Source: Verrucomicrobia bacterium UBA4286 (GTDB lineage: Bacteria; Verrucomicrobiota; Kiritimatiellia; RFP12; UBA1067). Taken from it: a DNA stretch of 15,331 nt. The stretch is from the NCBI GenBank assembly GCA_002395905.1, contig DGVK01000189.1:1-15331 (forward strand), given 5' to 3'. The notes under the pieces were generated by a model. That model made no database searches. It was not told the DNA's origin and worked only from the letters and a program-made list of their open reading frames with translations. Below are positions 1 to 15,120 of this stretch, piece by piece; position 1 is the first letter of the stretch; every line of letters begins with the position of its first letter. A program made the translations under genes and the position numbers.

Positions 1-2
1 GG

Positions 3-56
3 ACAAAAGGCAAGTGGTACGATCACAGGGTCGTGGTCTCTTCGCCTGAGAACTGA
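3..56 (+). CDS. C-terminal tail of an upstream gene (partial)
   Basis: Frame 3 is open from the window edge to a TGA at 54-56 and reads TKGKWYDHRVVVSSPEN. The KWYD-x-x-VV pattern resembles the C-terminal ends of Bacillota surface or heme-binding proteins that accompany FecB-like genes; this is a recollection of style, not a match I could test. The stop lies 8 bases before the next start, and the Shine-Dalgarno (SD) sequence of the next gene overlaps it, which fits an operon. Frame 2 also ends nearby (TGA 47-49), so the assignment is tentative. Confidence 0.4.
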   Translation, partial: TKGKWYDHRVVVSSPEN

Positions 57-64
57 GGAAATCT

Positions 65-1651
65 ATGTCCAGAAGTACGTTCGGATATGCGGTAAAACGG
101 TGCGGGCTGTGCCTTGCGCTGATCATGCTGACCTCCTGCCTGCTGCAGGGGGTTAGTTCTATATCTGCCGCTCAGCAGCCCTCCGGCGGGCAGGGGGAGA
201 GCCGGCTGATCGATATCACTTTCGAGGGAGGGACCGGAAAGGCTTATATCCGGTCCCCGGTGGAAGTGACACAGGCGGAAGACGGGACCCTGACTGCAAG
301 ATTCGTGTGGAGCAGCAGGAATTATGACTACATGATCGTTGGCGGGGTCCGGTATGAGAATGAGAATGAAGGAGGGGACTCCACCTTCACGGTTCCCGTT
401 CCGTCCCTGGAGGAACCGCTCACTGTAATCGGAGATACCGTTGCGATGAGCACTCCCCATGAGATCGAATACGTGATCAGATGGGGGAAGGAGAACGATC
501 AGGCAGGAGAGGACCGGGGAAAGGGCGGCACGCAGGATGAAGACGGGGATATTCCTGCGGAAGGATCTTTTGACGATGGAGGAACGGTTTCGGAAACCCA
601 GGCGGCGCTAGAAGCTGCCGGCATTCCTCGGACCGGGAGCATGGAACTTCAGTATGCGGAAGGCTTCCGCGTGGAGTACTTTGACCCGTATACCCTGATC
701 TCTATAGAGAATTCAGGAGAGTATGTCCTGGTTCCCTCCGGAAGCGAGGTCCCGTCCGGCATCCCTGAGAGCGCAGTGATCATCCGGCAGCCGGTGGAGC
801 GGACTTATCTGGTCTCCACCTCGGCCATGGATCTGATCCGCTGCTGCGGCGCCCTTGACAGGATCCGCCTGTCGGGGACCAGGGAGAATGACTGGTATAT
901 CGAAGATGCGAAAAATGCCATGCAGAAGGGTGATATCATCTATGCAGGCAGATACAGAGCCCCTGATTATGAGACGATCCTCGCGGAGAGCTGCGACCTG
1001 TGTATAGAGAACACGATGATCTATCATGAACCTGCGGTGAAGGCGAAGCTGGAGGAGCTGGGGATCCCCGTGCTGGTGGAGACCTCAAGCCGTGAACCGC
1101 ATCCCCTCGGGAGGCTGGAATGGATCCGGCTGTACGGGGTGCTGTTTGACAGAGAGAAAGAGGCGGATGCATATTTTACACAGCAGCTTCAGGCTCTGCA
1201 GCCGCTGCTGGAAGAGAAGCAGGATACCGGGAAGAGCGCGGCATTCTTCCATATTACGGGAAACGGCATGATCAATGTCCGAAGGCCCGGGGATTATATC
1301 TCCAGAATGATCGAACTGGCGGGAGGACACTATGTCCCTTCGGATACAGGCGGGAATGAAAATGCGCTTTCGACCATGAACATGCAGATGGAGGACTTTT
1401 ATGCCGCCGCGGCGGAAGCGGACATCCTGCTGTATAACAGCACCATTGGGGGAGAGATCGCGTCGGTGGGTGAACTGACGCAGAGGAGCGCCCTGTTTGA
1501 GGACTTCCGGGCTGTGAAGGAAGGAAATGTTTACTGTGTTGAGCGGAACTTTTTTCAGCAGATAACCGGAATGGCAGAGTTCATGCAGGATCTGAGCGGT
1601 GTACTGAATGGTTCCGGGGACGGTTTTACCTACCTGAAGAAGCTGGAATGA
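65..1651 (+). CDS. Iron/heme-type ABC transporter substrate-binding lipoprotein with extra N-terminal beta-sandwich domain
   Basis: This 528-residue extracellular binding protein probably captures an iron complex or heme and hands it to the permease encoded just downstream. The start has a strong SD (GAGGAA at 55-60). A basic N-terminus and hydrophobic stretch lead to a lipobox-like L22-T-S-C25; a second hydrophobic stretch ending ISAAQQ could instead be a type I signal-peptidase site. Residues about 48-140 form a beta-sandwich-like domain (FEGGTGKAYI, WSSRNYDYMIVGG, MSTPHEIEY) that often precedes FecB-like domains in gut Clostridia. A Gly/Asp/Glu-rich linker (about 141-175) follows. Residues about 246-500 match the periplasmic-binding (TroA/FecB-like) fold, including RTYLVSTSAMDLI, the CDLCIEN segment and a C-terminal VKEGNVYCVER. 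The next gene begins 19 bases downstream. Ligand identity is not shown by the sequence. Confidence 0.85.
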   Translation: MSRSTFGYAVKRCGLCLALIMLTSCLLQGVSSISAAQQPSGGQGESRLIDITFEGGTGKAYIRSPVEVTQAEDGTLTARFVWSSRNYDYMIVGGVRYENENEGGDSTFTVPVPSLEEPLTVIGDTVAMSTPHEIEYVIRWGKENDQAGEDRGKGGTQDEDGDIPAEGSFDDGGTVSETQAALEAAGIPRTGSMELQYAEGFRVEYFDPYTLISIENSGEYVLVPSGSEVPSGIPESAVIIRQPVERTYLVSTSAMDLIRCCGALDRIRLSGTRENDWYIEDAKNAMQKGDIIYAGRYRAPDYETILAESCDLCIENTMIYHEPAVKAKLEELGIPVLVETSSREPHPLGRLEWIRLYGVLFDREKEADAYFTQQLQALQPLLEEKQDTGKSAAFFHITGNGMINVRRPGDYISRMIELAGGHYVPSDTGGNENALSTMNMQMEDFYAAAAEADILLYNSTIGGEIASVGELTQRSALFEDFRAVKEGNVYCVERNFFQQITGMAEFMQDLSGVLNGSGDGFTYLKKLE

Positions 1652-1670
1652 CTCCGACGGAACGGAAGCT

Positions 1671-2681
1671 ATGAGAAAGAAACGGTATGCATTGTTTTTC
1701 AGCTTAATCATCGTCCTGATCCTGCTTCTGGCATGGATGAACATCGTGCTTGGAAGCGTGGACCTGTCCCCCGCCGAGATCGTCGGGATCCTGGCCGGTG
1801 ACCGGAGCGACGTGATGCACGCGAACATCATCTGCGGGATCCGCCTGCCCAGGATGGCGGGGGCATTCCTGCTGGGCGGAGCGCTTGCGCTCTCCGGTTA
1901 TCTGCTGCAGACGTTCTTCGGCAATCCGATCGTCGGGCCGTTTGTCCTGGGAATCTCCTCCGGGGCAAAGCTGACGGTGGCCCTGACCATGATTTTTTTC
2001 CTGTCCCGGGGAAGGGCGATCGGGCTGTACGCGATGGTCGGCGCGGCGTTTGCCGGTTCGCTCATTGCCATGGGATTCGTCCTGCTGATCTCTGTGAAGG
2101 TCCGGAGCATGAGCATCCTGGTGGTCTGCGGGATCATGATCGGATATATCTGTTCAGCGATTACCGATTTTGTGGTGACCTTTGCGGACGATTCCAACAT
2201 CGTGAATCTCCACAACTGGTCGATGGGAAGCCTGTCGGGAATGAACCGGGAGGAACTTCAGATCATAGCGGTTATCGTGGCGCTCTGCCTGCTGCTGGCA
2301 GGATGCATGGTGAAACCGATCGGGGCGTACAGACTGGGAGAGGAATACGCCAGGAGCGCCGGTGTCAATATCCTCCGCCTCCGGGTACTGCTGATACTGG
2401 TCTCCAGCCTGCTTGCGGCCTGTGTGACCGCTTTCGCGGGACCGATCTCATTTATAGGCATCACGGTCCCGCATCTGGTCAGGTCGTGCCTGAAGACAGA
2501 TGCCCCGAAGGTGATGATCCCCGCCTGTTTCCTGGGCGGATCGGCTGTGACGCTCCTGTGCGACGCGGTTGCCAGGACGGTATTCGCGCCGACGGAAGTG
2601 AGCATCAGTTCAGTTACGGCAGTGCTTCTGGTACCGGTCGTCATCTATATGATGATCCGCAGGAATACCCGGGAGCCGTGA
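1671..2681 (+). CDS. FecCD-family iron-complex ABC transporter permease
   Basis: This 336-residue multi-pass inner membrane protein is the transmembrane subunit of an iron-siderophore, heme or cobalamin importer. It has the family's usual length and about nine to ten hydrophobic segments. Hallmarks are the early IRLPRMAGAFLLGGALALSG segment, LQTFFGNPIVGPFVLGISSGA, and the conserved AGPISFIGITVPHLVR coupling region at residues 256-271. The C-terminus MIRRNTREP is typical. It follows the binding protein by 19 bases with a weak SD-like GGAACGGAAG upstream of the ATG. The expected third partner, a FecE-type ATPase, begins at 2796 but is only represented by its first 40-odd codons before the sequence switches to another family. 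Arginine is often AGG or AGA here, unlike the CGC-rich genes to the right. Confidence 0.92.
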   Translation: MRKKRYALFFSLIIVLILLLAWMNIVLGSVDLSPAEIVGILAGDRSDVMHANIICGIRLPRMAGAFLLGGALALSGYLLQTFFGNPIVGPFVLGISSGAKLTVALTMIFFLSRGRAIGLYAMVGAAFAGSLIAMGFVLLISVKVRSMSILVVCGIMIGYICSAITDFVVTFADDSNIVNLHNWSMGSLSGMNREELQIIAVIVALCLLLAGCMVKPIGAYRLGEEYARSAGVNILRLRVLLILVSSLLAACVTAFAGPISFIGITVPHLVRSCLKTDAPKVMIPACFLGGSAVTLLCDAVARTVFAPTEVSISSVTAVLLVPVVIYMMIRRNTREP

Positions 2682-2690
2682 TGCGCGGGT

Positions 2691-2777
2691 CTGCCGCCGG
2701 CAGGCCTGCCATGCAGAGAGATGTTCAAGTACGCCGCCGGCGTACCTGCGCCAGACCGCGCGGCCGCTTCAGCGGCC
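2691..2777. repeat. Cluster of GC-rich inverted repeats between permease and ATPase genes
   Basis: The 114-base spacer holds closely packed perfect inverted repeats. They are CTGCC-GCC-GGCAG (2691-2703), the palindrome GGCAGGCCTGCC (2699-2710, overlapping the first), GTACGCC-GCC-GGCGTAC (2729-2745) and GGCCGC-TTCA-GCGGCC (2762-2777). The first and third share the core GCCGCCGGC. None is followed by a T-run, so they are not classical terminators. They could be a REP-like element, an mRNA-stabilising structure or a translational attenuator for the ATPase gene. Confidence 0.6.
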
Positions 2778-2795
2778 TTCCACTGAGGTTGTACT

Positions 2796-4766
2796 ATGGC
2801 AGATCAGAGAGGAATCAGGACAGAACATCTGAATATCGGCTACAGAGACGACCTGATTCGGGATATCTGCCTGGAAGTGAGGCCGGGGCGCATCGTGACT
2901 CTGATCGGGCCGAACGGAAGCGGCAAATCCACCCTCTTCAAGATAGTGCTCGGCGAGATGTCGACCGACTCCGGCGAACTGATAATCGAGAACAATCCGC
3001 GAATCGGCTGGACGCGTCAGAACCCGGAGCCGGAGAGCGACGACGAGACGCTGCTGGAGTATTCCGTGCGCGGCGTGCCGGGCCTCGCCGAGATGGAGGC
3101 CGAGATGCGCGAGCTTGAGGCGGATCTCGCCGACCCGCAGAAGATGAAGCGCTACGGCGAGCTGCAGACGACGTTCGAGCACCTTGGCGGATACGACCTT
3201 GAGACGCGCGTGAAAGTCGCTCTCGGAGGTCTCGGCTTTTCGACCGAGGAGTTCACGAAGCCGTTCAAGTCGTTCTCCGGCGGATGGCGCATGAGGGCCG
3301 AGCTCTCGCGCGTCCTCGCCTCCAGGCCCGACCTTCTTCTTCTCGACGAACCGTCCAACTACCTCGACCTGCCCGCCGTGGACTGGCTGCAGAAGTTCCT
3401 GAAGGCGTACGACGGGACGTTGATGCTCATCTCCCACGACCGCTATCTCCTGCGCACGCTCACAAGCATAATCGTCGAGGTGGATGCGGGGACCGCGACG
3501 CGCTACGAAGGCGGCCTCGACTGGTACATGCGCGAAAGGGAGGTGCGCTACGAGCATCTCAAGGCCGCGAAGGAGAACCAGGACCACCACCGCGAGCAGC
3601 TCCAGCGGTTCGTGGACCGCTTCCGCGCGCAGGCGACGAAGGCCGCGCAGGCGCAGAGCCGCCAGAAGCTCATAGACAAGATCGACGAGGAGCGGATAGT
3701 GCTGCCGAAGCGCTACACGCAGTCGGGCAGGCTGCGCCTCGCCGAACCGCCGCCGAGCGGGATAGAGATGTTCCGCTGCGAGAACCTGGAGTTCTCCTAC
3801 GACGGGCGGAAGAAGGTCCTCGACGGCATCTCCTTCAACATCGCGCGCGGCGACAAGGTGGCGCTTATCGGCTACAACGGCCTCGGCAAAACGACGCTCA
3901 TGCGCATCATCGCCGGAACGCGCGAGCCGACCGGCGGCAGGGCGGTGCTGGGCCACAACGTGGTTCCCGGCTACCTGAGCCAGGAGTTCGCCGAGACCAT
4001 TCCGCCGGACGTCAGCGTGTACCGCAACGCGAAGAACGCGTGGGATGCGCACGGCGGCGGGCCGGAGAAGAACTTTCGCAACCAGCTCGGGGCGTTCGGC
4101 TTCGACGAGAACGACATCGAAAAACCGGCGGGCGTCCTCTCCGGCGGCGAGAAGATACGCCTGGCGTTTCTGCGGCTCTTCTTGAGCGCGCCGAACTTTC
4201 TGCTTCTCGACGAACCCACGACCCATCTCGACCTCGACGGACGCCGCCTTCTGCAGGAGGCGCTTCAGAAATACAAGGGGACGATACTCCTCGTCTCGCA
4301 CGACATCGACTTCGTGAGGGCCGTGGCGACGAGCGTTCTCGAAATCACCCACGAGGGGCTGAGGCAGTTTCCGGGCGGCTACGACTATTACTGCGAAAAG
4401 CGCGACGAAGGGAGAAGGGCGGCCGCGCCCGCGAAGAGGCAGGACGCCGAACCGGCGGCGTCCGCAACGCGCGCGCCGACCTCGAAGGAGCTGCGCCAGC
4501 AGCGTGCCGCCGAGCGCGCGAAGATCGCGCCGAAGCTCAAGGAGCTGAAGTCGCGCGTCGAGAAGGCCGAGAAGAAGGTGGACGAGCTGCAGGCCGCGCT
4601 TGACGCCGCGTCGGAGGAGCTGTTCAACCCGCGGCCCGACACGAATTTCGAGGAGGCGAACCGCAAGGTGCGCACGCTTCAGTTCGAGATAGACCGCTAC
4701 ACAGCCGAATGGGAGGCCGCCGCTACCGAGCTTGAAGAGCTCGCGTCCGGCGCGTCGCAGACATGA
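2796..4766 (+). CDS. ABC-F ATPase whose N-terminus is FecE-like (in-frame chimera)
   Basis: The 656-residue product is mainly an ABC-F protein, a soluble tandem ATPase of the family that acts on ribosomes. The first half has Walker A GPNGSGKST (38-46), signature SGGWRMR (161-167) and Walker B with DEPSNYLD (184-191). The linker, about 230-300, contains the ABC-F hallmark FVDRFRAQATKAAQAQSR. The second half has Walker A GYNGLGKTT (359-367), signature SGGEK (449-453) and DEPTTHLD (472-479). A Lys/Glu-rich coiled coil fills about 565-650. Residues 1-37 instead resemble a FecE transporter ATPase (TEHLNIGYRDDLIRDICLEV, then RPGRIVTLIG), matching the upstream permease. The start has a GAGG SD at 2785-2788, but it belongs to the left-hand operon; the true ABC-F start is probably missing. 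The 3' end overlaps the next gene by ATGA. The first switch motif is SNYLD rather than the usual TNHLD. Confidence 0.85.
   Translation: MADQRGIRTEHLNIGYRDDLIRDICLEVRPGRIVTLIGPNGSGKSTLFKIVLGEMSTDSGELIIENNPRIGWTRQNPEPESDDETLLEYSVRGVPGLAEMEAEMRELEADLADPQKMKRYGELQTTFEHLGGYDLETRVKVALGGLGFSTEEFTKPFKSFSGGWRMRAELSRVLASRPDLLLLDEPSNYLDLPAVDWLQKFLKAYDGTLMLISHDRYLLRTLTSIIVEVDAGTATRYEGGLDWYMREREVRYEHLKAAKENQDHHREQLQRFVDRFRAQATKAAQAQSRQKLIDKIDEERIVLPKRYTQSGRLRLAEPPPSGIEMFRCENLEFSYDGRKKVLDGISFNIARGDKVALIGYNGLGKTTLMRIIAGTREPTGGRAVLGHNVVPGYLSQEFAETIPPDVSVYRNAKNAWDAHGGGPEKNFRNQLGAFGFDENDIEKPAGVLSGGEKIRLAFLRLFLSAPNFLLLDEPTTHLDLDGRRLLQEALQKYKGTILLVSHDIDFVRAVATSVLEITHEGLRQFPGGYDYYCEKRDEGRRAAAPAKRQDAEPAASATRAPTSKELRQQRAAERAKIAPKLKELKSRVEKAEKKVDELQAALDAASEELFNPRPDTNFEEANRKVRTLQFEIDRYTAEWEAAATELEELASGASQT
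2903..2936. other. Junction between Bacillota-like and Kiritimatiellae-like sequence, in Walker A codons
   Basis: Upstream of this interval the encoded protein fits FecE and the operon logic fits a binding protein, permease and ATPase order. Immediately downstream (FKIVLGEMSTDSGELII) it fits ABC-F and codon use changes to CGC/CGT arginine and ATA isoleucine. The Walker A codons at 2907-2933 are conserved in both families and could provide the shared k-mer for a mis-join. The exact crossover base cannot be placed within the shared motif. Confidence 0.75.
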
Positions 4767-5875
4767 AAGCGTCCTGCGCCAAACGCCTGCCGTTCGCGGT
4801 GAACAAGAATCTGGCCGTAAACCTTTCGGACCAGGTTGCGGACGGTCTGCGCAGCGCGATACTCTCGGGGTATTACAAGAAGGGCGAAATGCTGCCGAAG
4901 CTCTCCGACATGGCGAGTGCGCTCGGCGTGAGCATGCGCATTCCGCGCGAGGCCGTGGCGAAGCTCGCGGCGGAGAATCTCGTGAGTCCGCGCCAGAGGC
5001 TCGGCTGCGTGGTCCTGGGGCGGCGCGAAGCGTACTGGCGCGGACAGGTCCTGGCGATAGCGCCCGTCGCCTGCGAAGGCGCCTACTTCGCTACGATGCT
5101 TTTCGGGGAGATGCGGCGCAGGCTGGTCCGGGCGGGATATCTTTTCTCTCTGTTCACGCTCGACCGCGACGCGAACGGCCGGTGGAATTTCACGGGGCTC
5201 GACCTCATGCTCCAGCAGAAGCAGACGTTCGCAGTGCCGTTGTACTGTCCGAAACAGGTTTTCGACCGCCTCGACCGTGCGGGGACGCCCTGGTCGACGA
5301 TACTGTATTCGGAGGATTTCCTGCCGCACGGTTCGGTCGGATACCTCGGCGACATGGCGGAGTTCCTCAGGCGGTGCGCGGCGAAGAACGTGCGCCGCGT
5401 GCTGCTCGTCGGCTGCGATTTCAGGGAGGCCTACGACGGCATAAGCCGCACTCTCAAGGACGCAGGGCTGGAGGTGGAGGAATGTTTCTTCAGCAAGGCG
5501 CAGTGCGGCGGCTACTCCTACGGATATCTCGAACGGATACAGCGTCTCGGCATGAAAGCCGCGCTCAAGCGTTTCTGCTGCGAGCGCGCGACCTGGCCGG
5601 ACCTTGTTCTGTGGCTTGACGATTTTCTTGCCGTCGGCGGTCTGGCGGGGCTTCAGGAGCTTGGCGTCCGCGCGCCCGACGACGTGTATGCCGTAACGCT
5701 CGCCAACAAGGGGTTTGTGCCGGCATATCCGCGCTCGCTCGCGCGTTTCGAGTTCGATCCTGTCGCGACGGGCGCGAAGGCGGCCGAGGTGATTCTAGGA
5801 CATATTGCCGGGAAGCCCGCGGAGCTGTTCGGCTTCATCCAGCAGTACAAGCCCGGCGAGACATTCCCCGACTAG
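4763..5875 (+). CDS. GntR-type winged-helix regulator with LacI-like sensor domain
   Basis: A 370-residue cytoplasmic transcription factor. Residues about 15-86 form a GntR winged helix: LSDQVADGLRSAILSGYYKKG, MLPKLSDMASALGVS, a recognition helix IPREAVAKLAAENLV and a wing RQRLGCVVLG. The rest resembles the periplasmic-binding fold used by LacI/GalR regulators; PDLVLWLDDFLAVGGLAGLQ followed by ELGVRAPDDVYAVTLAN corresponds to the end of that domain. A sugar effector is likely by family but not shown. The ATG overlaps the ABC-F stop (ATGA) and no SD is visible, so translation is probably coupled. The gene ends tail-to-tail with the XylR-type gene, sharing the CTAG bases as both stop codons. 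Whether it controls the glycoside hydrolase cluster is unknown. Confidence 0.83.
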   Translation: MKASCAKRLPFAVNKNLAVNLSDQVADGLRSAILSGYYKKGEMLPKLSDMASALGVSMRIPREAVAKLAAENLVSPRQRLGCVVLGRREAYWRGQVLAIAPVACEGAYFATMLFGEMRRRLVRAGYLFSLFTLDRDANGRWNFTGLDLMLQQKQTFAVPLYCPKQVFDRLDRAGTPWSTILYSEDFLPHGSVGYLGDMAEFLRRCAAKNVRRVLLVGCDFREAYDGISRTLKDAGLEVEECFFSKAQCGGYSYGYLERIQRLGMKAALKRFCCERATWPDLVLWLDDFLAVGGLAGLQELGVRAPDDVYAVTLANKGFVPAYPRSLARFEFDPVATGAKAAEVILGHIAGKPAELFGFIQQYKPGETFPD

Positions 5876-7041
5876 TCAAGAGCCGATGCACGCCACGTGC
5901 GCATTGTGGTGCCGAATTGCGCGCGGAAAGCGTTTCGCAATGTTCCGGGCGAGCCGTAGCCGCATTCGGCGGCGATGTCCTCTTCGCTTTTCGCCGTGCG
6001 CTTGAGAAGGTCAAGCACCTTCGTCATTCTTACTTCGCCCATCTCGTGTATCACGGACCTTCCGAGCACGTCCTTGAAGTCCTTTTCGAGAAGCCGCGCC
6101 GAGCAGCCGATCTTCTGTGCGATGGCCGCGACGGTCAACCGGGATCTGATTTCGCCGCGTATCAGTTTCATCGCCCTTGCGACCCTGTTCGCCGCGCCGG
6201 ACGTATCCGAAGTAGAAAGGCGCTCGACGATCTCTGCTATTCCGAAGAGGTTCGTGCGCGAGTATGATCTCCCCTCGATAATCGCGTCAAGCGTCTGTGC
6301 GGCGAGGAAGCCACCGCCTTCGAAGTCGGGGGAGATCGAGGAAAGTGTCGGTATCGCGTATTCGCAGAAGTACGTTTCGTTGTCAACGCCCAGAACCTGC
6401 ACCTGCGCCGGCACCTTGATTTCGGCTTCACGGCATGTGTCGAGGACAAACCGTGCGAGTGAATCGTATGCGGCGAAGATGCCGCATGGTTTGGGAAGGG
6501 ATTTTATCCATCGCAGCACCTCGCTGCGTTCTTTCGTCCATGACATGGGCGATTTGCCGGTCGGCAGGTACACCGACACTTCATGCCCGGTTCTGCTTAC
6601 GGCTTCCTTGAAGCTGGCAAGACGGGCTTTTTGCCAATAGACTGTTTTGCCGGTGCCGAAGAATGCGAAATGCGCAAGATTGTTCTTCGCAAGGCACTTG
6701 GCCGCCGCCTTGCCGATGGCCTGGTCGTCTGCGTAGATCGAGGCGGACGGCGCTTTCATGCGGCTGTAGGGCACTATGCATGTGAACACTGTCGGGATGT
6801 TCAGGCGCATTCCGGCAGGCACGGGGTTCACGGGCTCGTTCGAAGAGTAGCCGGTGATGATGCCGTCCGGGCGGCTGAACGGCCGTGCGTCATCGCGGTC
6901 AAAAGGATGCCCGCCGTGGACGAATACATTCCAGCCGCGTTTCGACGCCGCATATCGCAGAACGCCCGCGATGATGTCTCGCGCAGCCTTCACGCCGATG
7001 CTTTCCGCAACGAGGATGTTCACGCTCTTTTTCCTGTTCAT
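5872..7041 (-). CDS. XylR-type transcriptional regulator (LacI-like sensor plus AraC DNA-binding domain)
   Basis: A 389-residue regulator with the domain order of E. coli XylR. Residues about 5-270 form a LacI/GalR-like sugar-sensing domain, including KSVNILVAES near the start, the inter-lobe segment PCGIFAAYDSLARFVLDTC, and the strongly XylR-like VLGVDNETYFCEYAIPTLSSI. Residues about 285-389 are an AraC double helix-turn-helix (LTVAAIAQKIGCSARLLEKD, then EDIAAECGYGSPGTLRNAFR). Proteins of this type usually activate sugar-use genes when a monosaccharide is bound. The gene diverges from the secreted beta-repeat/glycosidase cluster, the usual position for its target. Its promoter (-10 at 7050-7055) lies only 8 bases before the ATG at 7041, so the message is probably leaderless. 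Its stop codon shares CTAG with the convergent GntR-type gene. Confidence 0.88.
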   Translation of the reverse strand: MNRKKSVNILVAESIGVKAARDIIAGVLRYAASKRGWNVFVHGGHPFDRDDARPFSRPDGIITGYSSNEPVNPVPAGMRLNIPTVFTCIVPYSRMKAPSASIYADDQAIGKAAAKCLAKNNLAHFAFFGTGKTVYWQKARLASFKEAVSRTGHEVSVYLPTGKSPMSWTKERSEVLRWIKSLPKPCGIFAAYDSLARFVLDTCREAEIKVPAQVQVLGVDNETYFCEYAIPTLSSISPDFEGGGFLAAQTLDAIIEGRSYSRTNLFGIAEIVERLSTSDTSGAANRVARAMKLIRGEIRSRLTVAAIAQKIGCSARLLEKDFKDVLGRSVIHEMGEVRMTKVLDLLKRTAKSEEDIAAECGYGSPGTLRNAFRAQFGTTMRTWRASALD

Positions 7042-7048
7042 GGTGTTG

Positions 7049-7060
7049 CATTATAGCAAA
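7049..7060 (-). promoter_or_regulatory. Extended -10 promoter of the XylR-type gene
   Basis: On the minus strand the bases read TTTGCTATAATG, a perfect extended -10 element (TG-n-TATAAT). The TATAAT ends 8 bases before the start codon at 7041, which places transcription initiation at or next to the ATG. No good -35 is seen at 17 bases; TTGCAC lies 20 bases upstream. The 12-mer is repeated in inverted orientation at 7109-7120. Confidence 0.75.
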
Positions 7061-7108
7061 TCCTGTTCGTATTGTGTGCAAAAATTATTCGTCTTTTGTG
7101 CGGCGCGG

Positions 7109-7120
7109 TTTGCTATAATG
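7109..7120 (+). promoter_or_regulatory. Extended -10 promoter of the rightward surface-protein/glycosidase cluster
   Basis: TTTGCTATAATG on the plus strand is identical to the divergent promoter at 7049-7060, making a 12-bp perfect inverted repeat with a 48-bp centre. Initiation is expected at about 7126. That gives either a leaderless message starting at the GTG at 7127 or a leader of about 230 bases for the gene at 7356. The 48-bp centre contains the small symmetric element CAAAA-n10-TTTTG, a possible regulator site. Confidence 0.75.
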
Positions 7121-7126
7121 TAAAGC

Positions 7127-7339
7127 GTGAAGCGTAGAAAACTATATGCTGCAATTGTGCGTATGCTGATCGCCTGTTCTTTCGCCGCGCTCGCCGCCCT
7201 CGGGCTAGACAAGATCGCGGACGCGCTCTTCGCGGCGAACGACGCCGCGCATGACGCGATGACGGCCCGCCGCGACGAACGCGGCGCCGGAACCCAACGG
7301 GGTCGCATCCGTTTCGTAAACCACTTGCGCCACTTCTGA
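7127..7339 (+). CDS. Possible 70-residue membrane peptide, GTG start
   Basis: The ORF starts with a GTG 7 bases after the -10 element and encodes a basic N-terminus (MKRRKLY), one hydrophobic segment (residues about 7-27, AAIVRMLIACSFAALAALGL) and an Arg/Ala/Asp-rich tail ending NHLRHF. It stops 16 bases before the next ATG, and the SD of the next gene lies just past its stop. I do not recognise it. It could be a single-pass membrane peptide, a leader peptide for the surface-protein gene, or chance coding potential in a 5' leader. A perfect hairpin, CGCCGCG-ACGAA-CGCGGCG, lies at 7268-7286 within it, without a T-run. Support is its placement at the predicted transcription start and its signal-like sequence; no SD is possible if the message is leaderless. 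Confidence 0.4.
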   Translation: MKRRKLYAAIVRMLIACSFAALAALGLDKIADALFAANDAAHDAMTARRDERGAGTQRGRIRFVNHLRHF

Positions 7340-7341
7340 AC

Positions 7342-7347
7342 AAGGAG
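7342..7347 (+). promoter_or_regulatory. Ribosome binding site of the beta-strand-repeat protein gene
   Basis: AAGGAG lies 8 bases before the ATG at 7356. It decides this start over in-frame ATGs at codons 9 and 14 and contrasts with the SD-less or leaderless starts of several neighbouring genes. Confidence 0.7.
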
Positions 7348-7355
7348 AGAAAAAC

Positions 7356-10300
7356 ATGAAGGAAAAGACAACTCACAACATGGCAAATCGTCACATGTCG
7401 GAGACACGCCGCATTTTTCTGGCGGCGTCACTTCTCGCCGCCACAGGCGCATGGGCGGACAACTGGCTCTGGACAGGCGCAACGGACAACATCTGGAGCA
7501 CAGACGCCAACTGGAGCAAAGACGGCAACAACAATGTCAATCGCAAATTCGAGGAGGCGTCTTTCAGCGAGAAGTTTAAGACGGATTACGGCTACCGCGT
7601 CCAGTTCACCGGCAATGAGTCGATAAACTGGAAGGCGCACATCCGTACAGGAACGTCGGAGAAGCCTGTCGTATTCTATGCCGACGACCCTTCGCATGGC
7701 CTTAAGGTCAACAAATCGGACGGAGGCTGGTATGTCGGCTACGATGGCTGCGCATCGGGCGAGGCCTGGCTCAAGCTTGAGTCCGGCACCTACGAAACCA
7801 CCGGTTATTGGCAAATCGGCTATACGGACACAGGGCATCTTATCGTCGGCGAAGGCGCGACAGTCAGCGGCACGGACTTCTTTCTCCGAAAAGGTTCTGT
7901 TGTCGTTGATGGCGGAACCGTGACGGTGCCAAGCGGGAACTGGACACGCTTTGGTTCTCATGGTGCCAGCACTCTTAACTTGAACGGCGGCATGTTTGCG
8001 ACCAAGCACATCCACAAGGACGCCAATTCCCCCGTCATCAACTTCAACGGCGGCACGCTTCTGGCGAACGCGACGTACACATCAAACGGCGGGCTGATAC
8101 AGTCCGGGATTGCGGTCAACGTCCTCGCGGACGGCGGCAAGATAGACAATGGCGGATTCGATGTCACGATTAGCGCGGCCATCAACGATGACAGTTCCGG
8201 CGTCCTCACTTTCACCGGCAGCGGTTCGACCACGCTTGCGGCGGACACTCTTAACGGTCTTGATGTCGAGTTGGATGACGGCTATCTGCATATAGCCAAC
8301 GATACCGACATATCCAAGTCTCTGACGGTCAACGGGGGAACGTTCGAATCGGCTGTCAGCACGTGGACGAAAATGTATAGTGGATGCACGTTGAACCTGA
8401 ATGGTGGATGCTTCAAGACAAGGCATATTGAGGGATATGGCGGGACACTCAACTTCAACGGCGGAACGCTTCAGGCGACTGCTTCATATGCCAACGGCCT
8501 TATCGGCGGTAATAGTGTTGCCGTCAACGTCAATGGCGGCACGGTCGATTGCAACGGCTACGACGTCATTATCGTCAGGACTCTTTCGGGGTCAGGCGGC
8601 CTGACCTTCATTGGCGGAAGCACGATCACTCTCAACGGCGACATTAACTACGGCGGCGTTACGGGTGTCGCGCCCGGCACGACGCTCAAGGCAACCGGCG
8701 CAAGAGTTTCGTCGATCCTGTCGAAAGGTGTCGCGCTCGTCGGCGTCCCCGCGCTCAACACGCCATATACGATACTGACCTCCGATGATGATTTGTCCGG
8801 CCTCGCGCTCGGCAACGTGACGTGCCCCATCGCGTCCGCGTTCACGGCTGACTTCGCCAATGAAGGCAAGTCCATAGTCGTTACCGTCACGGCCCTCAAT
8901 CCCGGCTGGTATGTCGGCCCGGCGGACGGCGATTTGAGCGTCGCCGCCAACTGGTCGGATGGCGTTGTGCCGACAACAGGCAATGCCGCGATATCGTGCG
9001 TCACGAAAGCGACGCTGACGAAGGGCGTGTCGTTCGCTCCGACGTCAATTACATTCGGTGCGGGCAGCGCCCCCGTGACGATAATCGGCGACACCGCTTT
9101 CGAGAACGTCACGGAGGTGGTCAGCCTTTCATCGTCTTCGCACACGATAAACGTACCTGTGCGTTTCGTCGGCGACATACAGGTCAAGCAGGCGGCGATG
9201 GCCGAAATTGGCGACCTTGAGAAGCCGCATGTCACGTTCGCCGACGGCGCATATGCCGCTGCGGGCCATGCGCTTGAGAGCGGCAGTTCAGATGCCGTCT
9301 ATTCGCGCTGCATTTTCGGCAAGTACTACCTCGCCTCGACGGCGGCGAATCGCTGGGACGCTTCGTATCAGGGCAGCACAAAGCGCCGCGTCTGCGTTGC
9401 CGACGGCGCAACGCTCTACATTCCGTATGCGGGAGCTTTGAAGGAGCTGTATGTCGGAAAAGGCGCTAAGGTTGATATCGGCGACTGGAATACAGACGCC
9501 CGTTCCTCCTATCAGATTCACGGCGAGATTGTCGCCACGAATCTGATGGAATCGGGTTCTGGCGACAGGTTCATGTCATGGGATCAGGGCACAACCACGC
9601 CGGGCGTATTCAAGTTCGAATCGGTTACGAACGCGATGACGGGTAACTGGTGGGTTCTCGGCGACCAGAATGCGGCGTCCAAGCACGTGTATTATATCGG
9701 TGCGGGTGGTCTGAACTTCTCGGGCACGGCGGCGACGTACTGCATTGGAGCCAACAACAGCGGCAACCATGAGACGATTCGTCCGTGGTATTCCGACTTC
9801 ACCATCGCCGGACGCGGCGACGGTGGTCGCGCGCTTGTGTTTCGCCAGACTGTCGAGTTCTGCACGGACGATGAGAGCGGCGCGGGTCGCACGATAACGA
9901 TAGACACTGTCACGCGGGGGAACACCTCGCCGGCGGTGATCGTCTCCGGTTCCGGAACGCTGAAGGTGAACAGACCGGCCAGCAACGATCAGCATCCGTC
10001 GGTGACGGTGACCGACACTGCGACGCTGGAGTACGCGTCTGGAGCAAAACTCGGCGATGGCACTGTGACGCTCGGCGCGGGCACCACCTTTGCGTTCGCA
10101 AATTCCGGCAGTACGCTCTCGCTCCCCTCGACCATCGTCCTGCCCGACTCTGGCGTTGCGACGCTGCGCATCGACGGCGACCTCCTCAAGAGCGGCGATC
10201 ACACAATTCTCGCCTCCGCACCAGAAGGCGCCGCCGCGCACTTGGCCATTGACCAGAACAGCCTTGCCATCGACGGACGTAAATTTTCACTTGAGGAGAA

Positions 10301-10361
10301 GGATGGCGCACTCGTCCTCAACATCGTCCCAATCCCTGGATTGATGATTATAGTCCGGTAA
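7356..10361 (+). CDS. Large secreted beta-strand-repeat (autotransporter-associated/beta-helix-like) protein
   Basis: A 1001-residue exported protein of unknown precise role. The first 34 residues form a signal peptide (RRIFLAASLLAATGAWA, cut before D35). The mature protein opens with WLWTGATDNIWSTDANW, a motif typical of autotransporter-associated beta-strand repeat proteins in Verrucomicrobiota and relatives. A similar motif (WYVGPADGDLSVAANWSDG) recurs at about residue 518. Gly/Asn/Thr-rich short strands such as LNLNGG and NFNGGTL predict a beta-helix or beta-solenoid. Residues 180-301 and 321-429 are an internal duplication. No catalytic motif, beta-barrel domain or SusD-like feature is visible. 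The C-terminus is PIPGLMIIVR, a short hydrophobic end with a final Arg but not a full PEP-CTERM signal. It is first of a tightly packed set with GH5 and GH106 genes, so surface binding or presentation of the same glycan is a reasonable inference. Confidence 0.8.
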   Translation: MKEKTTHNMANRHMSETRRIFLAASLLAATGAWADNWLWTGATDNIWSTDANWSKDGNNNVNRKFEEASFSEKFKTDYGYRVQFTGNESINWKAHIRTGTSEKPVVFYADDPSHGLKVNKSDGGWYVGYDGCASGEAWLKLESGTYETTGYWQIGYTDTGHLIVGEGATVSGTDFFLRKGSVVVDGGTVTVPSGNWTRFGSHGASTLNLNGGMFATKHIHKDANSPVINFNGGTLLANATYTSNGGLIQSGIAVNVLADGGKIDNGGFDVTISAAINDDSSGVLTFTGSGSTTLAADTLNGLDVELDDGYLHIANDTDISKSLTVNGGTFESAVSTWTKMYSGCTLNLNGGCFKTRHIEGYGGTLNFNGGTLQATASYANGLIGGNSVAVNVNGGTVDCNGYDVIIVRTLSGSGGLTFIGGSTITLNGDINYGGVTGVAPGTTLKATGARVSSILSKGVALVGVPALNTPYTILTSDDDLSGLALGNVTCPIASAFTADFANEGKSIVVTVTALNPGWYVGPADGDLSVAANWSDGVVPTTGNAAISCVTKATLTKGVSFAPTSITFGAGSAPVTIIGDTAFENVTEVVSLSSSSHTINVPVRFVGDIQVKQAAMAEIGDLEKPHVTFADGAYAAAGHALESGSSDAVYSRCIFGKYYLASTAANRWDASYQGSTKRRVCVADGATLYIPYAGALKELYVGKGAKVDIGDWNTDARSSYQIHGEIVATNLMESGSGDRFMSWDQGTTTPGVFKFESVTNAMTGNWWVLGDQNAASKHVYYIGAGGLNFSGTAATYCIGANNSGNHETIRPWYSDFTIAGRGDGGRALVFRQTVEFCTDDESGAGRTITIDTVTRGNTSPAVIVSGSGTLKVNRPASNDQHPSVTVTDTATLEYASGAKLGDGTVTLGAGTTFAFANSGSTLSLPSTIVLPDSGVATLRIDGDLLKSGDHTILASAPEGAAAHLAIDQNSLAIDGRKFSLEEKDGALVLNIVPIPGLMIIVR
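7893..8258 (+). repeat. Internal coding repeat, copy 1 (residues 180-301)
   Basis: The copy reads VVVDGGTVTVPSGNWTRFGS, STLNLNGGMFATKHI, INFNGGTLLANATY and GGFDVTISAAI in order. It aligns segment by segment with 8316-8642 at the protein level, with small insertions. Confidence 0.75.
8316..8642 (+). repeat. Internal coding repeat, copy 2 (residues 321-429)
   Basis: The copy reads SLTVNGGTFESAVSTWTKMY, CTLNLNGGCFKTRHI, LNFNGGTLQATASY and NGYDVIIVRTL, matching copy 1 in order. DNA identity has decayed except in the LNLNGG and FNGGTL segments, so the duplication is not recent. Confidence 0.75.
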
Positions 10362-10368
10362 ATAATTT

Positions 10369-11865
10369 ATGAATAAGACAGTCATATCGTTGCTCTTTGC
10401 GGCAAATGCAATCCTCTCGCTTTCATCGGCGGCGGGCGCCGACCTTAAATGGCAGTGCGGGGCGAACACTCGAATCGAGGGTCGCTTTCTGATTGCCGAG
10501 GTGCCGCAGGGCGAGGAAAAGACTGGTGGCGTCGCCAGCGCCGAAATCGACCTTTCGGAGTGGGACGGCAAGCCCGTCGGCGCTTCGATCGTCGCCAGAG
10601 GCGCTGGCATCGCTAAGCCGCTCAATTGGTACAACGGACTGAAGTTCCAGTTCGAGTACGTGGATGCGGTTACGGGCGAGTGGGCGTATCCGAACACGCA
10701 AGGACGGCTTGGCGACTTCCCCACGCAGACGATTCGCGTGTCCGACCTCGTTTCCGGCGCGAAGCGCAGCAAGGCGCGACTCATGCTTGGGCTTCAGGAG
10801 ACGAGCGGCAAAGTCGCGTTCGACCTTTCGACGCTCCGTATCGGCGAACCGGCTCCGCTTTGGCCAATCACAAACCAGAACCTCAAATGCGAATACAGCG
10901 TCAAGTCCGAAAAACGGCTGCGCGGCGTGATGTCGCCGTCGCAGGACATGACCATCGACGACTTCGACACGCTGCAGTCGTGGGGCGCGACGCTGATCCG
11001 CTACCAGATGGGGCGCAACTGGAATGCGCAGAAGGTTACGCCCGACCTCGGCGAATACGACCGCTGGCTTGACACGCGGCTTGACCATTTCGACACCTTT
11101 GTGCTGCCGCAGGCGGTGAAGCGCGGCATGAAGGTCGTTCTCGACATGCACGAGGCTCCGGGCATGAAGAACGAGTTCAACGAATGGAACATGCTGCACG
11201 ACCCTGCCGTGGCGCGGCATTTCGTAGAAACGTGGCGGCGCATCGCAAAGCGGTTCAAGGGGCGGAAAGGCATATACGGATACGACCTCGTGAACGAGCC
11301 GTTGCAGACTTCCGAGGCGGCGCCGGGGTGCGACTTCTGGACGCTCCAGAAGCGAGCGGCGGAGGCGATTCGCGCAATCGACCCAGACATGCCGATCATC
11401 GTGGAGTGCAACGGCATGGATTCTCCATGGGCGTATGGGTGCTTCTCTCCCCTCGACATGCCGAACATCATCTATCAGGTCCACATGTATCTGCCGCTCG
11501 CCTATACGCACCAAGGCGTGATGTGGAAGCAGGGCGAGCCGCGCGCATATCCAGACGAGGCCAAGGGCTGGAACAAGGAGTATCTGCGGGCGGGGCTGCG
11601 TCCCGTGCGCGAGTTCCAGCTGCGCCACGGCGCGAAGATATTCTGCGGCGAGTTTTCGGCCATTGTCTGGGCGCCAGGAGCGGGAGAATACCTGCGCGAC
11701 TGCATCGACATATTCGAGGAGTACGGCTGGGACTGGTGCTACCATGCATTCCGCGAATGGGAAGGCTGGAGCGTTGAGCGCGAAGGACCCAACCGGCGCG
11801 AGCTTGTACCGTCCGCCGACAATCCGCGAAAGCGAGCGCTGCTGAAAGGACTTCGCGCAAAATGA
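10369..11865 (+). CDS. Secreted GH5-type glycoside hydrolase with N-terminal beta-sandwich domain
   Basis: A 498-residue exported enzyme expected to cleave beta-linked polysaccharide (glucan, mannan or related) by a retaining mechanism. A signal peptide ends near residue 24 (SAAGA before DLKW). Residues about 25-165 resemble a carbohydrate-binding jelly roll. From about 185 the protein is a GH5-like TIM barrel: LIRYQMGRNW, VVLDMHEAPG (H261), YDLVNEP with the likely acid/base E310, YQVHMYLPLAYTHQG, and FCGEFSA with the likely nucleophile E428. A Trp-rich C-terminal segment (CYHAFREWEGWSVE) follows. Both catalytic glutamates are present, so the enzyme should be active; the GH5 subfamily and substrate are not certain. 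The start is 7 bases after the previous stop with no visible SD, and the stop overlaps the next gene by ATGA, so the genes are probably co-translated. Confidence 0.88.
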   Translation: MNKTVISLLFAANAILSLSSAAGADLKWQCGANTRIEGRFLIAEVPQGEEKTGGVASAEIDLSEWDGKPVGASIVARGAGIAKPLNWYNGLKFQFEYVDAVTGEWAYPNTQGRLGDFPTQTIRVSDLVSGAKRSKARLMLGLQETSGKVAFDLSTLRIGEPAPLWPITNQNLKCEYSVKSEKRLRGVMSPSQDMTIDDFDTLQSWGATLIRYQMGRNWNAQKVTPDLGEYDRWLDTRLDHFDTFVLPQAVKRGMKVVLDMHEAPGMKNEFNEWNMLHDPAVARHFVETWRRIAKRFKGRKGIYGYDLVNEPLQTSEAAPGCDFWTLQKRAAEAIRAIDPDMPIIVECNGMDSPWAYGCFSPLDMPNIIYQVHMYLPLAYTHQGVMWKQGEPRAYPDEAKGWNKEYLRAGLRPVREFQLRHGAKIFCGEFSAIVWAPGAGEYLRDCIDIFEEYGWDWCYHAFREWEGWSVEREGPNRRELVPSADNPRKRALLKGLRAK

Positions 11866-14459
11866 ATGCGCTGACTGCGGCTCTTGCCGCGATTGCCGTG
11901 TCTGCTGCGGCGGATACCAGACCTGAGACGTGGTTTCACATCATCGGTGGCAATGCATCGAAGGAAGGACTCGCCGCCGACATCGCGGCGGTTGCCGAGG
12001 CGGGCATTTCGGGAATATCGCTCTTTCATGGCGGCGGGGATGGAACCGAGTTATGGCCCGGCGTCACGAACGGCATACCGTGCATGAGCGGGAACTGGGT
12101 GGATTTGATCAAGTTCGCCGAGACAGAGTGCCATCGGCACGGGCTCAAGTTCAAGATGCAGAACTGTCCGGGCTGGTCGATGTCTGGCGGACCGTGGATC
12201 ACGCCCGACCGCGCGATGAGGAAACTCGTCTGCTTCGAGCCCGGCAGGAAGCCGAAGTTCGACGCTGACGACGACTACTGCGAGATAGGCGAGGTGGAGT
12301 TTCCTGTCGAGGCGGAAGATGCAGGTGTCGTGCGGTCACTTACGGTTCCCGCGCCGAGCCAGCTGAACCACGACTGGAGCTTTGAGCCGGGCGTCGTATT
12401 CGAGGTGTGGTCTTGCGGGAAGAAGGTCATCGAGCGGGAGTGTCCTGTCGGGACGTGGGCGGATACGTTCGGCGGGCCGGGGCTGGAGATGACGTTTGAT
12501 GTCGGTGCGCTGCCGCGAGACGGTCTGGAGCTGCGGACGCGGGCCGTGCACGACATGAAGCCGTTCGAGCCGGTCTGGTCGCCGGCGCACAGGCTCGACA
12601 ACTGGCAGGCGAAGGCGGGACGCACCCTGCGCAGGTTCGAGATGTCCACGAACGCCGCGCCGGTTCGCGCCGCCGGAAAGAAGAGGCTTGTGTTCGGTCA
12701 CGTCAACATGAAGCGCAGGAACCATCCCGCGCCGCCGGAGGCGACGGGTTGGGAATGCGACAAGATGGATCCGCGCGGCTTCGAGGCGAACTTCGCGGGC
12801 TATATCGGGCGGCTCGTGGAGGCGGGCGTGAAGGTGGATGGCATCCTTGTCGACAGCTGGGAGTGCGGAAGCCAGTCCTGGACGTGGAGGATGGAAGACG
12901 AGTTCAGACGGCGCACAGGCTATGCGCTCAGGCCGTGGCTTCCCGCGCTCTTCGGCTACATCCTCGGCAGCGAGGTCGAGACCGAGAAATTCCTCCTGGA
13001 CTGGCGAAACGTCTGTTCGCGCCTTGTTGAGGAGAACTACTACGGCGCGATTGCGCGACTTGCGCGGGAGCACGGCATGTCCGTCGTGTACGAGACGGCG
13101 TTCGGCGACGTGATACCGGGCGACATCATGCGCTTCTGGAAGTACGCCGACGAGGCGATGTGCGAGTTCTGGAACCCGCACGACAACAACGGTTTCGTCG
13201 GCAGCTTCGACTTCAAGCCGATTCTCCCCTGTGCGTCCGCCGCGCACATCTACCGCAAGCGCCGCGTGAGCGCCGAGGCGTTCACGAGCTTCGAACTGAC
13301 GTTCGACGAGAACTTCAAGGACTGGAAGAAGGTCCTGGACGAACATTATGCGAGGGGCGTCACGCACATCGTCTACAACACCTTCACGCACAACCCGGTA
13401 ATTGGAGGGAAGCCGCCGTCTTCAAGTTACGGCGACGCCATCGGCTCGCCGTTTCTGCGCGAGCAGACGTGGTGGCCGTACCTGAAACATTTTTCGAAGT
13501 ACATCGAGCGGTGCGGACGCGAACTGGAGCGCGGCGTTCCGGCGGTTGACATCCTAATGTACCTCGGCGACGACGTGAACCACAAGCCGTCGGAAAGCAA
13601 ACTTCTTTTCGGTGGCCGCTACAAGTACGACTACCTCAATAACGATGTGCTGATGAACGCGCTGGACGTGACGGACGGACGGCTGGCGATAGGTGCGTGT
13701 CAAGGCTGCGAGCCGCAGACGGATTCGCCGACATACCGCGTCCTGTGGATTCCTGAGGGGACGTTTCTGCTTCCGGCGACTGAAGCGAAGATTGCGGCAC
13801 TCGCGGCGAAGGGAGCGCGCGTGGTGCGCGGCGATTTCGAGCCGGACTGGCCGTCGCCTGTAAAGGCGATGCTTGGCATCGAACCATCAACCTTGCGCGG
13901 ATGGTATCAGCGTCGCGACGGCGACGAGGACATCTTTTTTGTAGTGGAGGAAGACGGGCGCTCCGCGTTCCATCGCGTCAAAAACGGTGTCTGCACGGTG
14001 CTTGATCCCGTCACTGGTGTAGAGCACAGCCCTGATGTGTGGCGGGATATGCAGAAGCCGGATGCAAACGCCGTCGGCATTGAACTTAAGCCCGTCGAGG
14101 ACTATCCCGTGCGAGTGACAAAGCGCATATACGAGGGAACGGTCGGAATTGAAAACGCGGCATTGGAAGTTCGCCTTGATCTTGGAAAGGTGCGCGACTG
14201 GGCGACGGTGTATGTTGACGGGCGAAAGGCTGCCGACCTGTGGTGTGAGCCGTACGCATGCGACATTGCGCCGTATGTGAAGCCCGGACGAAACGCCTCC
14301 ATCCGCGTGGAAGTCACATCTACATGGTACAACGCGCTTGTGGAGGACGCGAACCTCCCGGAGAAAGACCGCCGGACATGGACGAAGTTCGGACCGAAAC
14401 CGGGCGCACAGTACCATGAAGCAGGTTTCATCGGCCCCGCGATCATACGTGAGCGCTGA
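11862..14459 (+). CDS. Secreted GH106-family glycoside hydrolase (alpha-L-rhamnosidase family)
   Basis: An 865-residue exported enzyme. A short signal peptide (MNALTAALAAIAVSAAA) precedes the opening motif WFHIIGGNASKEGLAADIAA, a variant of the GH106 entry motif. Further family features are KMQNCPGWSMSGGPWI, the SWECGSQSWTWRMEDEFRRR and TGYALRPWLPALFG pair, VVYETAFGDVIPGDIM and the AMCEFWNP segment. The C-terminal part holds a galactose-binding-like sandwich (LDLGKVRDWATVYVDGRKAA, LWCEPYACDIAPYVKPG, VTSTWYNALVED). Length is within or slightly below the family's usual size. Alpha-L-rhamnosidase activity follows from the family but related sugars cannot be excluded; I did not assign the catalytic residues. 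The entry motif differs from the WWHWMNGN form of the second GH106-like gene at 15121, so the two may have different specificities. The ATG overlaps the GH5 stop. Confidence 0.83.
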   Translation: MNALTAALAAIAVSAAADTRPETWFHIIGGNASKEGLAADIAAVAEAGISGISLFHGGGDGTELWPGVTNGIPCMSGNWVDLIKFAETECHRHGLKFKMQNCPGWSMSGGPWITPDRAMRKLVCFEPGRKPKFDADDDYCEIGEVEFPVEAEDAGVVRSLTVPAPSQLNHDWSFEPGVVFEVWSCGKKVIERECPVGTWADTFGGPGLEMTFDVGALPRDGLELRTRAVHDMKPFEPVWSPAHRLDNWQAKAGRTLRRFEMSTNAAPVRAAGKKRLVFGHVNMKRRNHPAPPEATGWECDKMDPRGFEANFAGYIGRLVEAGVKVDGILVDSWECGSQSWTWRMEDEFRRRTGYALRPWLPALFGYILGSEVETEKFLLDWRNVCSRLVEENYYGAIARLAREHGMSVVYETAFGDVIPGDIMRFWKYADEAMCEFWNPHDNNGFVGSFDFKPILPCASAAHIYRKRRVSAEAFTSFELTFDENFKDWKKVLDEHYARGVTHIVYNTFTHNPVIGGKPPSSSYGDAIGSPFLREQTWWPYLKHFSKYIERCGRELERGVPAVDILMYLGDDVNHKPSESKLLFGGRYKYDYLNNDVLMNALDVTDGRLAIGACQGCEPQTDSPTYRVLWIPEGTFLLPATEAKIAALAAKGARVVRGDFEPDWPSPVKAMLGIEPSTLRGWYQRRDGDEDIFFVVEEDGRSAFHRVKNGVCTVLDPVTGVEHSPDVWRDMQKPDANAVGIELKPVEDYPVRVTKRIYEGTVGIENAALEVRLDLGKVRDWATVYVDGRKAADLWCEPYACDIAPYVKPGRNASIRVEVTSTWYNALVEDANLPEKDRRTWTKFGPKPGAQYHEAGFIGPAIIRER

Positions 14460-14510
14460 TGAAAGGCGAATGAAGCGCACGGTAAGCAGGCGCGACGCTG
14501 TGCTGAGACA

Positions 14511-14521
14511 TTTGGTATAAT
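14511..14521 (+). promoter_or_regulatory. Extended -10 promoter of folE
   Basis: TTTGGTATAAT fits the same TTTGnTATAAT form as the two promoters near 7049-7120. TATAAT (14516-14521) ends 9 bases before the ATG at 14531, so the transcript would be nearly leaderless. No convincing -35 or SD is seen. It lies in the 71-base gap after the GH106 stop, where no terminator hairpin was found. Confidence 0.7.
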
Positions 14522-14530
14522 ACTCACGTT

Positions 14531-15109
14531 ATGCATCAGAAGAAATCAATGCAGCCGAACGAGGCGAAGGTGGCGAAGCTCGTGAAGGAGCTTCTCGTCG
14601 AGCTTGGCGAGGACCCGGAGCGCGACGGTCTCAAGAAGACGCCCGAGCGCGTCGCCCGCTCTCTCGCTTTCCTCACGCGTGGATATCGCCAGGACATCCG
14701 CAAGGTCGTGAACGGCGCGAAGTTCACGAGCGGGACCAACCATATGGTAATCCTGAAAGACATCGAGCTTTACTCCCTCTGCGAGCACCATATGCTGCCG
14801 TTCTACGGCAAGTGCTCAATCGGTTACATATCGCAGGGAAAGGTTCTCGGCGTCTCCAAGCTGGCGCGTATAGTCGACATGTTCGCGCGCCGCCTTCAGA
14901 TACAGGAGCGGCTTACCGAGGAGATTGCAAACGCCGTTATGGAAGAGTCCGGGGCCGAGGGCGTGGGCGTTGTGATCAAGGCAAGACATCTTTGCATGAT
15001 GATGCGTGGTGTTGAAAAGCAGAACTCCGAAATGACGACCTCCGCCGTGCTTGGATCGTTCCGTACGGACGAAAAGGTGCGTCAGGAGTTCCTGTCGCTC
15101 ATCCGCTGA
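14531..15109 (+). CDS. folE: GTP cyclohydrolase I
   Basis: This 192-residue enzyme converts GTP to 7,8-dihydroneopterin triphosphate, the first step of tetrahydrofolate and, in many bacteria, queuosine synthesis; it is cytoplasmic and forms a homodecamer in known members. The core motifs are intact: [12 protein letters not shown], the zinc-binding [10 protein letters not shown] (C84, H87), [31 protein letters not shown] and [10 protein letters not shown] with the third zinc ligand C155. The length is normal for a bacterial type I enzyme. The gene has its own promoter and no SD, and sits between two GH106-type genes with no metabolic link to them. Its stop (TGA 15107-15109) overlaps a possible upstream ATG of the next gene, but the next gene's better start is at 15121. 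Confidence 0.95.
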
Positions 15110-15110
15110 T

Positions 15111-15114
15111 GGAG
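15111..15114 (+). promoter_or_regulatory. Ribosome binding site choosing the start of the last gene
   Basis: GGAG lies 6 bases before the ATG at 15121, immediately followed by a basic, signal-like N-terminus. An in-frame ATG at 15109 that overlaps the folE stop has no comparable SD. Confidence 0.6.
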
Positions 15115-15120
15115 AAAGTC

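Follow-up and report, generated by a model that had tools for sequence, protein, structure and literature searches.

An apparently intact ABC ATPase gene in a Kiritimatiellae-like MAG joins two unrelated genes at the Walker A motif and is most likely an inter-genome misassembly

Introduction

Inter-genome translocation misassemblies join two genomes, and conserved sequence common to distinct organisms is a stated cause of them; of the assemblers, MEGAHIT is said to be more prone to inter-genome translocations and IDBA_UD to intra-genome ones (metaMIC, PMC9661791). Two sets of ABC ATPases are also relevant to the locus described here. BtuD-CobQ-type fusion ATPases of Lachnospiraceae run on as an ATPase followed by cobyric acid synthase, and in-frame fusions of a FecE/BtuD-type ATPase to CobQ were seen in the proteins P0121 and P0122 and at 6995-9376 of L019, a locus from a Lachnospiraceae MAG. 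ABC-F ATPases related to Kiritimatiellae proteins (P0002-P0011) begin with a native stretch of 33 residues.

We analyzed a stretch of 15,331 bp (the window, bases 1-15331 of the 30,040-bp contig C174) from a bin of 2.37 Mb in 237 contigs. One of its ORFs resembles both sets of proteins. Its first 47 residues are those of P0121, with the same gene order to the left as in L019, whereas the protein then runs on as an ABC-F, near-identical to P0002-P0009 (and 591/619 identical to P0010 and P0011) over residues 38-656, with 37 foreign residues instead of the native first 33. Judged by these likenesses, the ORF is a chimera of two unrelated ATPase genes from different bacteria, and we consider it very probable (about 0.9) that it is an inter-genome misassembly and hence an artefact of a known kind.

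As in the misassemblies described in the metaMIC paper (PMC9661791), two genomes would have been joined at conserved sequence common to distinct organisms, and the bin statistics look acceptable (82.58% complete, 1.46% contamination). The join here differs from those in lying inside a coding motif that is read in the same frame on both sides, which gives an apparently intact chimeric gene. No mention of this locus was found in the titles and abstract openings of the papers listed in literature searches.

Results

An ORF composed of two ATPase genes

The features on the two sides of the junction are as follows.

3-56, + strand: 3' end of a CbiK-like (sirohydrochlorin cobaltochelatase) gene, truncated where the contig begins; foreign, Lachnospiraceae-like (likeness of the C-terminus)
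65-1651, + strand: periplasmic binding protein of the FecB/BtuF type; foreign, Lachnospiraceae-like (PF01497, 2.7e-25; DNA alignment with L019)
1671-2681, + strand: permease of the FecCD/BtuC type; foreign, Lachnospiraceae-like (PF01032, 1.3e-74)
2796-2936, + strand: first 47 residues of a BtuD-CobQ-type fusion ATPase, the foreign half (47/47 residues as in P0121)
2907-2936, + strand: junction, residues 38-47 (GPNGSGKSTL), common to both halves (alignment of P0001, P0121 and P0002)
2907-4766, + strand: ABC-F ATPase without its native first 33 residues, the host half (614-618/619 against P0002-P0009; 88.3% DNA identity to G006 over 2907-4752)
4763-5875, + strand: GntR-type regulator with a periplasmic-binding-like domain, host side (PF00392 and PF13377)
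2937-15331, no strand assigned: host-side remainder with regulators, PF00150 and PF17132 glycoside hydrolases and FolE (tetranucleotides uniform with the rest of the contig)

In the ORF reading of the window, 2796-4766 is open and in frame and encodes a protein of 656 aa, in agreement with an earlier reading of the DNA alone (the sequence-only reading), which held that the frame survives the crossover. GPNGSGKST occupies residues 38-46 (window 2907-2933). A Pfam search placed two ABC_tran (PF00005) stretches and the linker PF12848 in the protein, and residues 38-656, with both of these stretches, the linker and no membrane-domain family matched, have the make-up of an ABC-F. The top model for residues 1-46 alone was FecE at 34 bits, far under the FecE whole-protein cut-off, and that for the whole protein was a ribosomal-protection-like ABC-F model, barely over its cut-off (380.6 bits vs 380). 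A complete single ABC domain of the BtuD/FecE type beside the binding protein and permease was not found in the window, which holds 47 residues of one; the continuation is found in P0121. Residues 1-47 are P0121-like and residues 38-656 ABC-F-like, with residues 38-47 (2907-2936) common to both. The crossover had been placed at 2903-2936, in a motif common to both families, and the shared residues lie inside that interval.

Counterparts of the two halves

A search with residues 1-46 returned 111 proteins at E up to 10 from 193 candidates of 361-1148 aa, a length range in which ordinary FecE proteins (about 255 aa) could not appear. One other protein in this search, P0121, was identical over all 46 residues. 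It is a FecE/BtuD-type ATPase of 817 aa fused to cobyric acid synthase (CobQ), and it matches the chimera over 47 residues before the two diverge, with Leu in P0121 and Phe in the chimera at residue 48. The same combination of ATPase and CobQ Pfam families was seen in several further clusters of the search. P0121 may stem from an organism other than that of the window's permease; the best listed full-length permease is P0232 (92% identity).

Among the best 120 of 7997 hits of the whole-protein search, P0001 is the window's own protein, from one contig, and P0002-P0009 are eight clusters of 652 aa each, from 19 contigs in sum. From GPNG on, these eight are identical to residues 38-656 of the chimera at 614-618 of 619 positions. 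All eight share one identical native N-part of 33 residues (MLDFRNISVHYG..., or in a fuller reading MLDFRNISVHYGHQDVLTNVTFRVNKGDRVGVV), and they have Val where the chimera has Ile at residue 37. P0010 and P0011 differ from this native start in one residue. An MLDF-type start was found in 117 of the 119 proteins besides P0001 among these hits; one of the two exceptions begins inside the same native sequence (MLSNVTFRVNKG) and the other begins differently (MCRRELHRQDLG). The N-parts of the 119 are at most 29% identical to that of the window. We call the host side Kiritimatiellae because the three relatives listed with an organism name among these hits (82-86% identity) are Kiritimatiellae. In the relatives search, an ABC-F gene was present at E <= 1e-100 in 54 of 58 genomes, own included.

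These counterparts bear out the proposal that a FecE N-terminus is joined to an ABC-F protein at Walker A, and separate searches with the two parts, as that proposal had advised, gave best hits that differed in family and in phylum. A second genome with this fusion, which the sequence-only reading had named as counter-evidence, was not seen: among the best 120 of 7997 hits and the 111 hits (candidates of 361-1148 aa), P0001 was the only protein with it, and no second contig or genome was found. Within the bin, the native ABC-F start does not occur elsewhere (next best match, 45%) and CobQ had no match at E <= 1e-15. Both absences fit an artefact and would fit a real replacement too.

A 612-aa ENA protein, P0137, also has a FecE-type N-part that runs in frame into an ABC-F protein, scoring as FecE over residues 1-168 (143 bits) and, with most models, as ABC-F from roughly residue 133 onwards. 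Its switch lies near the Walker B motif (LDEPTNHLD), in contrast to the switch at Walker A in the window, and the sequences differ. P0137 looks like a second in-frame chimera.

DNA alignments and composition

The window was compared by blastn with 80 loci carrying permease relatives, mostly from Lachnospiraceae, with some from Treponema and others. None of the 80 aligned past 2943; the best left match, L019, was 73.8% identical over 209-2666 and 78.5% over 2795-2943. Eight same-genus regions were also fetched. Five of them carry abc-f and align from 2905 or 2907 rightwards (the best being G006, 88.3% over 2907-4752), the three without abc-f match at 4769 and beyond only, and none of the eight aligns left of 2905. 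A permease match at E <= 1e-5 was obtained in 16 of 58 genomes, own included. No such match was found in 42 of the 57 other genomes, and those in the remaining 15 were at 27-33% identity, besides two short pieces at 40% and 43%.

Tetranucleotide profiles were compared for 19 segments of 2900 bp along the contig (raw / normalised correlation with the host part). The first segment, 1-2900, correlated at 0.45 / 0.58 with the host part and at 0.81 with Lachnospiraceae loci. For the second, which lies across the junction and partly within the host sequence used for comparison, the values were 0.86 / 0.78, and the remaining 17 segments gave 0.82-0.96 / 0.75-0.87 with the host and 0.38-0.63 with Lachnospiraceae. 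The profiles on the two sides of the junction differ, in a comparison that the sequence-only reading had called for. Composition alone would not settle the origin, since the first 2900 bases of single Lachnospiraceae loci correlate with the host at 0.10-0.73 (23 loci).

Codon use, which had been described as different on the two sides, gave a log2 likelihood ratio of +18.2 (left-type) for residues 1-37, -0.7 for residues 38-47 and -15.1 (right-type) for residues 48-84, scores that are somewhat inflated because the scored stretches, residues 38-50 excepted, belong to training genes. Elsewhere, the other left windows ranged from +1.0 to +16.8 and the abc-f windows from -2.3 to -22.9. A finer placement of the crossover by codon use was dropped, residues 38-47 being neutral.

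The foreign operon and its probable substrate

The translation of 3-56, TKGKWYDHRVVVSSPEN followed by a stop, resembles the C-terminus TKGKWYDHKVTVSSPVQ of the ORF at L019 2839-4395, which matches CbiK at 191.9 bits, under the cut-off of 400. The first 250 residues of the binding protein (window 65-800) have no Pfam match, and L019 has a similar N-part. The best NCBIfam model for the permease is BtuC (193.5 bits, under the cut-off of 334); its amino acid identity is 79% to the Lachnospiraceae MAG RUG14848 and 92% to P0232, in a database clustered at 90%. Another FecCD permease, P0231 (532 aa, on a 1.42-Mb contig), has about 190 residues repeated almost exactly, which may be a local duplication error.

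The genes of L019 are, in order, CbiK-like, binding protein, permease, ATPase-CobQ fusion, CobT, a further ORF and CobS-like, the CbiK-like and CobS-like assignments both lying below model cut-offs. From its gene content, the L019 cluster would serve corrinoid synthesis and, presumably, uptake. Because this context includes CbiK-like, CobQ, CobT and CobS-like genes, the left operon of the window is, judged by the gene context of this one relative, more likely to take up corrinoid (B12) than iron, and the CobQ fusion of P0121 points to corrinoid likewise. The left genes had been read as an iron-transport operon; the transporter superfamily stands, and iron is the less probable substrate.

The host side of the contig

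To the right of the ORF lie the GntR-type regulator, a regulator with an AraC-type HTH and Peripla_BP_3, a large Pfam-less protein, PF00150 and PF17132 enzymes and FolE, and the earlier remark that the neighbors on the two sides are unrelated was right. The GntR-type regulator is 88-89% identical in amino acid sequence to counterparts in the same-genus genomes G005, G006 and G014, and FolE has best matches of 80-89% in 33 of the 34 other same-genus genomes. The gene at 7356-10361 encodes a 1001-aa protein whose start looks secreted and which has no Pfam or NCBIfam match.

The GntR and ABC-F genes overlap by 4 bp in the window and lie on different contigs in G005, G006 and G014. A second join at 4763 was considered on this ground and not adopted, because composition is uniform there and the neighbors of abc-f differ between G006 and G022. 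The gene that precedes abc-f in G006 is a helicase, presumably UvrD-type; it had no match at 1e-20 in the bin, which was not counted as evidence. The gene that follows, which we take to be ilvC, is present in the bin in two pieces, at one end each of contigs C22 and C63. These pieces (C22 1-148 and C63 1-969; L164 and L165) have 13 nt in common, and the split therefore yields no k-mer size.

At 1353-2777 on the minus strand of a further locus (L160, G019:C77), the end of a GntR gene is joined in frame to an unrelated protein, which we assume from its look to be transposase-like. This GntR end is 99% identical to the window over residues 294-370, and the joined gene is possibly another chimera or an insertion remnant.

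Discussion

Most probably the metagenome contained a Kiritimatiellae abc-f gene together with a cobalamin cluster of Lachnospiraceae (cbiK-btuF-btuC-btuD/cobQ type), and the DNA of the two source genes was almost the same at Walker A. The assembly path would then have led into the short Walker A word from the Lachnospiraceae side and out of it on the Kiritimatiellae side. Because the motif stands in one and the same frame in both genes, such a join yields one long ORF, which gene callers would take for an intact ABC ATPase. The overlap of the two sources, which are known as proteins alone, is established at the protein level, and the exactly shared DNA would be at most 34 nt (2905-2938), given Leu/Phe at residue 48 (P0121) and Val/Ile at residue 37 (P0002-P0009). 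A point against this reading is that, with so short a shared stretch, the join must have depended on an assembly stage at small k or on a few chimeric reads.

Walker A regions from 53 left-type loci (of 80) and 22 right-type loci (of 24) were compared in 1166 pairs. Exact in-register matches reached 22 nt at most, with 19 nt or more in five of the pairs; small assembly-k words are hence occasionally common to such unrelated genes, while in a given gene pair a shared word of some 30 nt would be a rare event. The 24-nt junction word occurs in the window only, among the 58 genomes searched, and so yields no count of possible collision sites.

The two genes may instead have been joined in the library, through ligation or template switching within the short stretch common to both, and the product then sequenced and assembled faithfully. 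An overlap of at most 34 nt suits template switching, and the sequence data would otherwise be the same as for a misassembly. Such a molecule should, however, be scarce compared with intact copies of either gene, and joins of low coverage are usually discarded by assemblers. We regard this origin as unlikely and infer that the assembler, rather than library chemistry, made the join. Considerably less probable still is a real recombination, in which a Lachnospiraceae fragment replaced the abc-f start at Walker A in a Kiritimatiellae cell and left a working hybrid ATPase. The preserved frame, the position of the swapped segment ahead of Walker A in both families and the failure to find a second native abc-f start in the bin would all fit such an event, although the missing start means little in a bin that is only 82.58% complete. 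Against it, the native start is present in each of the eight clusters with 99% identity over the shared part, no contig but this one showed the junction (among the best 120 of 7997 hits and the 111 hits), and the left piece keeps its Lachnospiraceae-like composition and stops at the contig edge. It is thus very doubtful that there is a Kiritimatiellae strain in which a hybrid ABC-F ATPase with a transporter-type N-terminus stands behind an acquired B12-uptake operon.

Least credible of all is that the gene is an ordinary ABC-F with a divergent N-terminus, lying behind an operon that was acquired horizontally and is unremarkable. The uninterrupted frame and the ABC ATPase sequence of both parts would fit this, but the N-part is identical at 47/47 residues to a different protein, P0121, and P0002-P0009 all carry one and the same native N-part of 33 residues, so that this reading is already contradicted. 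Inter-genome misassembly, which had been proposed as most likely, with the genes on the two sides coming from different organisms, is supported by intact, near-identical counterparts of both halves and by the change of composition and taxonomic affiliation at the junction. The foreign piece of 2.9 kb forms one end of the 30,040-bp MAG contig, and the genes left of about 2907 are foreign to this genome, most likely through an assembly error.

It would be wrong to assign the B12-uptake operon to this Kiritimatiellae-like genome or to take the 656-aa protein for a natural variant of ABC-F. When a join at Walker A or Walker B stays in frame, it causes no frameshift and need not raise contamination estimates, and hence such joins can enter protein databases as new domain architectures.
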